Positions 8,205-10,299 of a stretch of DNA of 64,000 nt are shown here, one piece after another (the stretch's first letter is position 1; each line of letters starts with the position of its first letter). Below the pieces are notes generated by a model, which saw only the letters and a list, made by a program, of their open reading frames with translations, made no database searches and was not told where the DNA came from. Position numbers and translations under genes: made by a program. The stretch spans positions 248,001 through 312,000 of the forward strand of contig NZ_LT703007.1 in NCBI RefSeq assembly GCF_900149695.1. The letters are read 5' to 3'. This DNA is from Anderseniella sp. Alg231-50 (GTDB taxonomy: Bacteria > Pseudomonadota > Alphaproteobacteria > Rhizobiales > Aestuariivirgaceae).

Positions 8205-8538
8205 ACGCAAATTGCAAAAAAGACGCGCCCCGGTCGCTTGAACGGCAGGGGGAACCGTTGTGCGAGGGAGCGCGATCTGATCAGCGGGGCTTTTCATGGT
8301 GTCCGGGAGGGGTATACCGGGGCCATGATGCCCATCTTCTAAGTCCGGCGTATGTTTGGTTCTTGTTGCATCACAATGCCCGGATACGTTTGCAGGGGAT
8401 CGGGGGGCTTGCCTTTGCTTCGTCTTCTTGTTGTTCAACGCCTTGTTGTTGATGAGTAACCTAGGCATATTTTGAAGACATGAATGTGCATTTCATCACA
8501 TTGCGAAACTGCCCTGCTTTTCCGCCCAAGGAACCTAC
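8205..8538. other. Intergenic region with repeat copy A
   Basis: The 334 bp between trhO and the HugZ-like gene are almost filled by the first copy of the structured repeat (8216-8508). The remaining 30 bp hold the AAGGAA ribosome binding site of the HugZ-like gene. I see no protein-coding frame that survives comparison of the three repeat copies. Confidence 0.8.
8216..8508 (-). ncRNA. Candidate small RNA, repeat copy A
   Basis: This is one of three ~295-bp copies (others at 9474-9769 and 10001-10299). Read on the minus strand, it begins with the conserved TTTCGCAATGTGATGAA, has a conserved hairpin (8295-8327; CATGG/CCATG outer, CCGG/CCGG inner, loop TATACCCCTC) and ends in a long GC stem (8224-8231 with 8267-8274) followed by TTTTTT. 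In this copy one stem pair is G-U on the minus strand but a C-A mismatch on the plus strand. That supports a minus-strand transcript. Divergent from the HugZ-like gene. Family unknown to me. Confidence 0.6.
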
Positions 8539-9276
8539 ATGCAAGCCATCACTCCCAGAGGCGTTGAAATCAACCTGGATGCGGCTCGCCCGATAGAAGC
8601 CATCCGCGTTGCCCGAACGCTGCTGCGCACAAGCCGGGTCACCACGCTGGCGACGCTTGATCCCAGTGGATATCCATACAGCACAGTTACCAACCTGATC
8701 GTCGAACCCGACGGCGTGCCGGCTGTGTTCATGTCGGGGCTTACGGTTCATGCCCGCAACATAACGGCTGACGCCCGTGTCTCGATGACGGTGGCAGACA
8801 CCGGGAGCGACGTCATGACCACCGCGCGCCTGACGCTCAGCGGACAGGCAGTGCGGGTGCCGGATGCTCAGGTACCTGCGCTAAAGGCACGGTATGTGGA
8901 ACGGTTTCCCAAGGCGAGACTCTATCTCGGCCTGCCTGATGCGCTTTGGTACCGGGTTCGTGGCGAAGCGGTGCAACTCAATGGCGGACCGGCGCAGAAC
9001 GCCAATTCCGTTACACCTGAGGATCTGCTGACCAATCTGGCTCCGGCTTCAGAACTCATGGACTCAGCCCCTGCCCTGATTGCTTCACTGAACGAAGGCG
9101 ACCGGGCGGCCCGGCTGGCTGCAACTGCGGGAGCCGAACCCGGGCGCTGGCGGGTCAGTGGTATCGATCCGGAAGGTATTGACTTGAGCACAACCTCAAA
9201 TCTGGCGCGGCTGTGGTTCACCGGTCCGGTTGCCTCGCGCGAAGACTTCGATACCGCGGTCGCGGATGTGCTCTAA
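8539..9276 (+). CDS. HugZ-like FMN-binding split-barrel protein
   Basis: The 245-residue protein starts at ATG 8539 with AAGGAA upstream. Residues ~20-150 form a pyridoxamine-5'-phosphate-oxidase-like split barrel (VTTLATLDPSGYPYSTVTNL, FMSGLTVHARNI). Residues ~165-245 match the C-terminal DUF2470-type domain (NEGDRAARLA, RWRVSGIDPEGIDL). This two-domain layout is that of HugZ-type heme-utilisation proteins. Heme-degrading activity is plausible but not shown, since many relatives are uncharacterised. No heme-uptake genes are nearby. It is flanked by repeat copies A and B. Confidence 0.82.
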   Translation: MQAITPRGVEINLDAARPIEAIRVARTLLRTSRVTTLATLDPSGYPYSTVTNLIVEPDGVPAVFMSGLTVHARNITADARVSMTVADTGSDVMTTARLTLSGQAVRVPDAQVPALKARYVERFPKARLYLGLPDALWYRVRGEAVQLNGGPAQNANSVTPEDLLTNLAPASELMDSAPALIASLNEGDRAARLAATAGAEPGRWRVSGIDPEGIDLSTTSNLARLWFTGPVASREDFDTAVADVL

Positions 9277-9473
9277 CTGGTCACGGCTTCCTGAGTCCGC
9301 CCGAAGAACAGAAACCTTCTCAGACCCTGCCCCGGCCTGGTCAGGCGCTCATAAAAGCCAACAATGAAGCGAAGTTCTACAAGGGAAAAATAGGACTTGG
9401 AGATATCAAGCGCCTGGTGACTGGAGCCGCGTATGTACCACCCGATCAGTCCCGATGATCCATATCCAAAAAC
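9277..9473. other. Short intergenic stretch, no convincing gene
   Basis: The 197 bp after the HugZ-like gene contain an open frame ending near 9458 (translation includes ANNEAKFYKGKIGLGDI), but it has no plausible start of its own and overlaps the upstream gene. I call nothing here. Confidence 0.5.
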
Positions 9474-9769
9474 AAAAAACCGCGCTCCTTATCGCATTTA
9501 CGGCAGGGGGAACCGTGTTGCGGGGAGCGCGGTCTTAATTCGCGGGGGCTGTGTCATGGTGTGCCGGGAGGGGTAACCGGAGGCCATGGTGCCCATCTTT
9601 TAAGTCCGGCGTCTGTCTGTTTCTTGTTGCATCACAATGCCCGGATAGTTTTGCAGGGGATCGGGGGGCTTGCCTTTGCTTCGTCTTCTTGGTGTCCAAC
9701 GCCTTGTTGTTGATGAGCAACCTAGGCGGGTTTTAAAGACTCAGATGTGCAATTCATCACATTGCGAAA
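9474..9769 (-). ncRNA. Candidate small RNA, repeat copy B
   Basis: Second copy of the structured repeat. On the minus strand it contains the conserved hairpin (9555-9588, loop TTACCCCTC) and ends with a perfect 10-bp stem, ACCGCGCTCC (9479-9488) paired with 9524-9533, enclosing an ACGG/CCGT inner stem and the loop TTCCCCCTG. The stem is followed by TTTTTTGTTTTT. It is closest in sequence to copy C. The only small frame inside it (start TTG) is not kept in the other copies. Confidence 0.62.
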
Positions 9770-9779
9770 ATCATCACTT

Positions 9780-9918
9780 TCCAGCCGGCTTGTCGGCGCT
9801 ACTGCCGGGTGTATCCGGGGATGTGGCCGGCATCCTGGCCGGGATCGCACTGATCGTGACAGCATTCGTTATACTGGACAGGATCATTTCGCGACCGGTG
9901 GCTGCAACTGCCGAATAA
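9780..9918 (+). other. Possible remnant or small membrane-spanning frame between repeats B and C
   Basis: The frame reads through about 45 codons to TAA at 9916-9918 and encodes one hydrophobic helix (VAGILAGIALIVTAFVILD) followed by RIISRPVAATAE. No ATG or ribosome binding site is present at its beginning; GTG or TTG codons would have to serve. It may be a small membrane protein gene, or the 3' end of a gene cut off by insertion of the repeat. Evidence is weak. Confidence 0.25.
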
Positions 9919-10000
9919 TTTGTGCTGACCCGAACCACACGCGCTAGCGGCATGAAGCGCCGGAATGGCACGGCAAAACTCAAGCAATACCAGCGCAAAC

Positions 10001-10299
10001 AAAAAAACCGCGCTCCTTATCGCGGTTACGGCAGGGGGAACCGTGTTGCGGGGGAGCGCGGTCTTGAACTCGCGGGGGCTTTGTCATGGTGTGCCGGGAG
10101 GGGTAACCGGGGGCCATGATGCCCATCTTTCTTAGTTCGGCGTCTGTCTGGTTCTTGTCGCTTCAGAATGCCCGGATACGTTTGCAGGGGATCGGGGGGT
10201 AAACTTTGCTTCGTCTTCTTGGTGTCCAACGCCTTGTTGTTGATGAGCAATCTAGGCGGGATTTAAAGACTCAGATGTGCAATTCATCACATTGCGAAA
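10001..10299 (-). ncRNA. Candidate small RNA, repeat copy C
   Basis: Third copy of the structured repeat, ending 120 bp before the divergent ABC-F gene. It keeps the internal hairpin (10085-10118, loop TTACCCCTC) and the 10-bp terminator stem (10007-10016 with 10053-10062) followed on the minus strand by TTTTTTT. Relative to copy B it carries a one-base deletion near 10200 and a compensating insertion near 10130. This changes any encoded peptide but leaves the hairpins intact, which argues for a structural RNA. Confidence 0.62.

Follow-up and report, generated by a model that had tools for sequence, protein, structure and literature searches.

Three repeats in Anderseniella sp. Alg231-50 as probable genes of a multicopy, CRP-controlled small RNA with anti-Shine-Dalgarno-like segments

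What are three closely similar repeats of ~295 bp doing within 2 kb of an alphaproteobacterial genome? The repeats, here called copies A, B and C, lie in a 64,000-nt stretch of Anderseniella sp. Alg231-50 (the window; C5:248001-312000 of its 4.6-Mb genome, G000). A preliminary description of this DNA took them for a family of small RNAs (sRNAs) encoded on the minus strand. Our analysis suggests, with a probability of roughly 0.7, that the copies are minus-strand genes of a multicopy, trans-acting sRNA with a CRP-type promoter and segments resembling the anti-Shine-Dalgarno sequence. The repeats lie where they had been placed (A 8216-8508, B 9474-9769, C 10001-10299) and, over about 300 nt, copies C and A are 92% and 86% identical to copy B, respectively. 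A search of the whole genome with copy B gave no full-length match beyond these three; its 5′ quarter partially matched another contig, at an sRNA-like gene with the same promoter and leader.

The conserved 5′ end of the copies holds a CRP-type palindrome, TGTGA-N6-GCACA, followed after exactly 20 nt by C and TANNNT in all three copies; their common form is TGTGATGAA(A/T)TGCACA, exactly 20 nt, and CTAG(G/A)TT. At class II promoters, CRP sits with the centre of its palindrome at -41.5 and the -10 hexamer occupies -12 to -7. The 20-nt spacing to the hexamer therefore predicts a palindrome centre at -41.5, that is, class II geometry, and places the predicted +1 at the first base of CAACAACAAGG in each copy. 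The conserved 5′ end is real, as had been claimed, with its first ~57 bp probably being promoter DNA; for this reason we expect a transcript of about 240 nt instead of the ~280 nt proposed earlier. All 11 type I copies (the window copies and their relatives) for which promoter sequence is available fit the CRP-type pattern at 20-nt spacing.

The same geometry is not confined to the copies. The pattern TGTGA-N7-CACA-N20-NTANNNT occurs 58 times in six genomes of the genus, against once for the reversed pattern, and 13 times against none in G000. Its stricter CTANNNT form occurs 47 times in the six genomes and 19 times in 54 others, with no reversed match. By inspection, sRNA candidates and small proteins whose starts resemble signal peptides lie behind the pattern. 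Several of these small-protein families, with signal-peptide-like N termini, recur across the genus behind a class II CRP-type promoter (L073, L060, L074, L112, L119, L122, L113, L118 and L123), and a CRP-type site also lies upstream of small protein genes in L022 (G004:C65) and L014 (G002:C186). The label DUF1127, given by eye to the 50-residue L022 protein, was dropped, as Pfam gives no match. As for the regulator, G000 has 16 matches to the CRP-type helix-turn-helix family, and nine above the cut-off were examined. In two of the nine, G000:C1:794932 and C1:464536, the recognition helix contains R-E-x-x-x-R, and in two others E-x-x-S-R, motifs that we take to mark CRP and FNR specificity, respectively. 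Both proteins with the former motif match CRP-family chains in PDB, and that at C1:794932 was aligned to CRP; they are our candidate regulators of the copies.

One CRP site can act on genes to either side, and the repeats could be mainly a regulatory region for plus-strand genes, the minus-strand RNA being incidental. Each copy had been described as divergent to a plus-strand frame. This holds for copies A and C, whose divergent neighbours are a PNPOx-domain gene (8539) and an ABC-F ATPase gene (10420), respectively, whereas the plus-strand neighbour of copy B is a small frame only. The copy A site lies 38 bp before the start codon at 8539, and the PNPOx-domain gene starts near a copy in relatives also. 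However, in each copy, and at the unrelated loci of other sRNA types described below, the -10 hexamer at class II distance belongs to the minus side. The copies also carry their conserved stems, C-rich segments and terminator, ~240 nt in all, on that side. We consider this reading improbable.

The predicted type I RNA opens with an A-rich leader, CAACAACAA, which we take to be a plausible Hfq ARN site; an Hfq gene is present in G000. The leader is followed by a 5′ arm GGCGU, an A-rich linker, C-rich segment 1 and a 3′ arm ACGCC or ACGCU. In the 3′ half, a hairpin with an ACCCCUCC loop precedes a terminator hairpin with a nested UUCCCCCUG loop. Each RNA would thus hold three C-rich, anti-Shine-Dalgarno-like segments, of which segment 1 (CCCCCCGAUCCCCUGCAAAC) is nearly invariant across the 15 type I copies that we aligned.

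Several observations bear on the strand. As first described, a GC-rich hairpin stem followed by a T-run closes the minus strand of all three copies in our folds. That of copy B, folded alone, has z -6.6, with none of 200 shuffles as stable. A consensus terminator scan recovered copy C only, as a shorter stem, because the scan's loop limit of 8 leaves out the long form. The argument that a G-U pair in copy A marks the minus strand as the RNA strand was borne out: the terminator pair concerned is U-G in 7 of the 15 copies (copy A included), U-A in 6, and C-G and unpaired in one each; the named stem cells hold 27 G-U against 12 A-C combinations. In the two 3′ hairpins, 89.3% of cells pair across the 15 copies, against 35-46% when partners are slid.

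The copies could instead encode a small protein, since stop-free stretches reach 83 codons in single copies. Yet 6 of the 15 type I copies, window copies B and C included, have no end-to-end open frame on either strand. The frame-shifting indels already seen between window copies extend to the relatives as well: measured against a single reference copy, 57 of the 71 indels are single-base and 10 two-base, so that 67 are of 1-2 nt. As judged from end-to-end frames and indels, a coding role is hardly credible.

Further support comes from sRNA candidates that share the 5′ module of the copies. Types II and III have the same promoter and leader as type I and are otherwise unrelated to it in sequence; type IV shares the promoter and has a different leader (Table 1). 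Folded alone, the G000 hairpins of types II and III give z -5.55 and -6.02, and the type IV terminator z -6.16. Type IV has four hairpins by inspection, with CCUCC in the terminator loop. Two further variants occur in G002 (L009 and L047), and G000 holds six such sRNA candidates in total. Across types, the long-range stem is kept by compensatory changes: GGCGU/ACGCC, GGUGAUG/CAUCACC, GGUGAC/GUCACC, GAUGAC/GUCAUC and GGCGAUG/CAUCGCC. With arms chosen by eye in the homologous place in 18 rows (from type I, 5 of the 15 copies; from the others, all 13 found, with 5 of type II, 6 of type III and 2 from G002), 102 of 108 cells are paired, and none of 20,000 permutations did as well; with the 12 distinct arm pairs, one of 20,000 did.

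Two stretches, each from a different sister genus, show a comparable arrangement. L142 (G015) has the promoter pattern, then C-rich sequence, a terminator-like hairpin and a long T-run at 1501-1680. In L144 (G008), C-rich sequence likewise lies behind the promoter pattern, and after it a hairpin and T-run. Inside the predicted RNA of L144, on the same strand (1368-1494, minus), lies a suhB/mmgR match of 29.1 bits against a threshold of 41; the suhB/mmgR consensus contains UUUCCUCCCU.

Table 1. Predicted parts of the three window copies (window positions) and loci of the further sRNA types
Feature	Location	Strand	Details
Copy A, CRP-type palindrome	8485..8500	-	TGTGATGAAATGCACA; predicted centre -41.5
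Copy A, -10 hexamer	8458..8463	-	TAGGTT
Copy A, predicted sRNA transcript	8216..8451	-	236 nt; +1 8451; T-run 8216-8221
Copy A, C-rich segment 1	8388..8407	-	CCCCCCGATCCCCTGCAAAC
Copy A, middle hairpin	8286..8335	-	loop ACCCCTCC (8306-8313)
Copy A, intrinsic terminator	8216..8278	-	nested hairpin, loop TTCCCCCTG (8246-8254)
Copy B, CRP-type palindrome	9746..9761	-	TGTGATGAATTGCACA
Copy B, -10 hexamer	9719..9724	-	TAGGTT
Copy B, predicted sRNA transcript	9474..9712	-	239 nt; +1 9712
Copy B, C-rich segment 1	9648..9668	-	CCCCCCGATCCCCTGCAAAAC
Copy B, middle hairpin	9545..9595	-	loop ACCCCTCC (9567-9574)
Copy B, intrinsic terminator	9474..9536	-	nested loop TTCCCCCTG (9504-9512)
Copy C, CRP-type palindrome	10276..10291	-	
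Copy C, -10 hexamer	10249..10254	-	TAGATT
Copy C, predicted sRNA transcript	10002..10242	-	241 nt; +1 10242
Copy C, C-rich segment 1	10180..10199	-	
Copy C, middle hairpin	10075..10125	-	loop ACCCCTCC (10097-10104)
Copy C, intrinsic terminator	10002..10065	-	nested loop TTCCCCCTG (10032-10040)
Type II sRNA candidates	G000 C4:205574; L018, L021, L026, L037		loop holds CCUCCUCCC
Type III sRNA candidates	G000 C1:884423; L023, three in L035, L070		CCCCUCCC loop; leader deviant in L070
Type IV sRNA candidates	G000 C1:1218403; L024, L063, L116, L120		promoter shared, different leader

The type I sequence is conserved within the genus. A covariance model built on the 3′ half of the 15 aligned copies (R1) matched 5 of 69 genomes of the family, namely five of the six genus genomes (G002 excepted) and none of the 63 others; it also gave one 29-bit match in G003. 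Among 397 genomes of the order, R1 found the own genome and two weak matches of ~30 bits. By blastn, all five other genus genomes and none of 54 further relatives gave matches, those in G002 covering no more than the promoter or the opening part of the transcript. Outside G000, type I relatives occur in four genomes of the genus, with two named records besides. A pattern scan of a named genome collection returned 20 stretches, 16 of them from metagenome-assembled genomes (10 Anderseniella, 4 Alphaproteobacteria bacterium, 1 Ahrensia and 1 Rhizobiaceae group). The other four, three from Erwinia and one from an archaeon, were rejected as not of this kind, the Erwinia ones having a coding gene directly following.

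Three copies inside 2 kb, with a partial match elsewhere in G000, might also be remnants of a small mobile element whose ends look like a promoter and a terminator. Against this, the partial match is itself another sRNA-like gene sharing the promoter and leader, and copies in G001, G003, G004, G005 and L025 also adjoin relatives of TrhO (identified in the window neighbourhood as an NCBIfam equivalog), the PNPOx-domain gene or the ABC-F ATPase gene; none of these neighbours was found within the 4.2 kb examined of L034. Moreover, conservation among type I copies peaks in the promoter and the C-rich segments, and the stem covaries between types. With element ends sought in the list of repeats only, this origin seems very improbable. 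Between copies B and C, on the plus strand at 9784-9915, the window also holds a stretch of 44 residues that three relatives share at 66-68% identity and that may be a small membrane protein.

Together, the fixed-spacing promoter, the terminators, the lack of a common reading frame, the relatives and the covariation between types support the minus-strand sRNA family first described.

The C-rich segments led to a candidate target. The shared segment CCCCUGCAAA is complementary to TTTGCAGGGG, and TTTGCAGGGG-N0-14-ATG occurs at 16 places in the six genomes, at least one of them inside an sRNA gene, against 2 for the reversed pattern. Five of the 16 precede frames of at least 290 codons, and three of these five belong to one family of secreted-looking proteins (one in G000, two in G004). 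This family has 12 members in G000, among them G000:C1:2095167-2096057 (minus strand), and a search of 36 genomes placed it in 7, namely the six of the genus and G012; one member, when scanned, had no Pfam or NCBIfam match. AGGGG precedes the start in 6 of the 11 G000 members recovered, against 13 of 359 sampled genes, the members being paralogues and so not independent. The last 12 nt of segment 1 of copy B are complementary to the ribosome-binding site of one G000 member, whereas the best background match among the 359 genes is 9. Set against 200 shuffles of itself, segment 1 showed a stronger preference for the family than 199 of them, and in an uncorrected test by segment, segment 1 of type I gave p 0.0037 and that of type II p 0.026. 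On these grounds some members of the family are a possible target, to which we give somewhat less than even odds. In G004:C52:8440-8460 (L176), a leader of the family type precedes a 19-codon remnant, and the sequence past the remnant's stop resembles the 3′ flank of an intact G000 gene.

Several results count against the proposed sRNA and its target. A sigma-70 consensus scan found no promoter. The 300-nt stretch of copy B reached no more than z -2.17 (minus strand) and z -1.53 (plus strand), and its middle hairpin alone z -1.18, with 20 of 200 shuffles as stable. In RNAalifold, the 11 promoter-containing copies showed no compensatory pair, promoter DNA being mixed into the fold. The covariance check suggested at the outset bears the family out only by half: the long-range stem covaries between sRNA types, but covariation within type I does not rise above shuffles. 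A first version of the long-range-stem test, which took the best complement anywhere downstream in 26 rows, was not clearly separated from shuffles (mean pairs 5.7 with the own arm, 5.5 with other arms and 5.1 shuffled). Regarding the target, the other six segments do not favour the family (I_P3 0.21, I_P4 0.11, II_P3 0.75, III_loop1 0.08, III_P3 0.26, IV 0.13). The other 10 of the 11 G000 members match copy B over just 4-7 nt, and copies A and C match their best member over 10 nt. By duplex energy with copy B, 4 of the 11 members fall in the best tenth of the background, one of them with a misplaced start, and 7 fall outside it. The target evidence is also partly circular: the search itself was made with the 10-nt match, and the family members are paralogous.

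We propose the following mechanism, drawn from sequence comparison. A CRP-family activator with TGTGA specificity would bind at -41.5 and recruit RNA polymerase by class II activation. The resulting RNA of ~240 nt would open with the A-rich leader, to which Hfq may bind, and the long-range stem GGCGU/ACGCC would fold around C-rich segment 1, ahead of the two 3′ hairpins. Through its C-rich segments the RNA would base-pair with G-rich Shine-Dalgarno sequences and so prevent translation, possibly that of some secreted-family members with AGGGG ribosome-binding sites.

The RNAs might alternatively be made as proposed and yet have a protein or another RNA, not the ribosome-binding sites of mRNAs, as their main partner, acting as a sponge or decoy. 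Several C-rich sites per molecule and several gene copies would suit sequestration; type I has three such segments, and type IV has four C-rich-loop hairpins by inspection, two of which were folded. Precedents are described in two papers: a Caulobacter sponge RNA binds the UUUCCUCCCU-bearing siblings SisA-D (PMC12559287), and the maturation of CcsR in Rhodobacter involves a small protein that binds RNA (PMC10253847). The L022 protein had looked to be of the latter, DUF1127 kind, and its lack of a Pfam match slightly lowered the weight that we give to this reading. On the other hand, the C-rich segments are complementary to AGGGG and GGAGG ribosome-binding sites, and RNAs with such loops are reported to block translation (PMC3927594, PMC4132741). 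We regard sequestration as unlikely.

If the copies are translation-blocking sRNAs as we propose, they may belong to a wider system. A modular, CRP-activated sRNA set within one genus, with a common 5′ module of promoter, leader and long-range stem and with swapped anti-Shine-Dalgarno hairpins, could govern the secreted-protein family through its AGGGG dialect, the sRNA and target families having diversified together; this is a tentative picture that we hold to be doubtful as a whole. The exact promoter geometry links the sRNA candidates to a CRP-type regulon. With one 5′ module in front of sequence-unrelated anti-Shine-Dalgarno hairpins, the set offers a tractable case of sibling sRNA diversification; a concrete, testable target is at hand in the large paralogous protein family with its AGGGG leaders. 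In the genus stretches searched, no Rfam model matches the set at threshold: the window yielded no family at gathering score, and a search of the copies and eight relatives relaxed to E 1 brought up nothing in the genus but SNORD10 (E 0.41). Our literature search, which left most subscription journals outside, found no paper combining Anderseniella and sRNA.

How, finally, do the copies compare with known sRNAs? They resemble the SmelA075/CcsR group, to which the names cuckoo, ar14 and NfeR1 presumably also belong, in having several copies per genome and anti-Shine-Dalgarno-like segments, and differ from it in their three different C-rich segments and CRP-type promoter. In the Sinorhizobium RNAs SmelA075 and SmelA099, the loops mimic the anti-Shine-Dalgarno sequence while the stems vary, and a block of ribosome-binding sites is proposed (PMC3927594); the Rhodobacter CcsR cluster is described as having an RpoHI/RpoHII promoter (PMC10253847). 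RNAs of the group have at least two hairpins that each bear a CCUCCUCCC loop. Neither CCUCCUCCC nor CCTCCTCCC occurs on either strand of the window, and since CCUCCUCCC is absent there we do not place the copies in this group; type II, elsewhere in G000, has one such loop. The RF02344 (ar14) model found nothing in the six genomes, nor in 14 control genomes, so that this search had no positive control.

The aR8 siblings SisA-D of Caulobacter are likewise sibling sRNAs with a C-rich core; theirs differs in being a single-stranded UUUCCUCCCU core, antagonized by the sponge CrfA, and they are reported to repress a large regulon, TonB-dependent receptors included, tied to carbon supply (PMC12559287). 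The type I copies gave no match to the suhB covariance model up to E 1 and are therefore not placed under suhB. CRP control recalls CyaR and Spot 42 of enterobacteria, sRNAs that lie under a CRP site and differ from the copies in being single copy and presumably unrelated in sequence. CyaR also has a partial anti-Shine-Dalgarno loop motif (PMC3927594). LhrC1-5 of Listeria monocytogenes, from another phylum and dependent on the LisRK two-component system, are multicopy RNAs with three redundant CU-rich sites, in a stem-loop, a single strand and the terminator; the type I layout is alike, a likeness of layout only, for which we claim no homology. By analogy, and without the loops that define the cuckoo/CcsR group, the copies would work much as the cuckoo/CcsR, LhrC and SisA sRNAs do.

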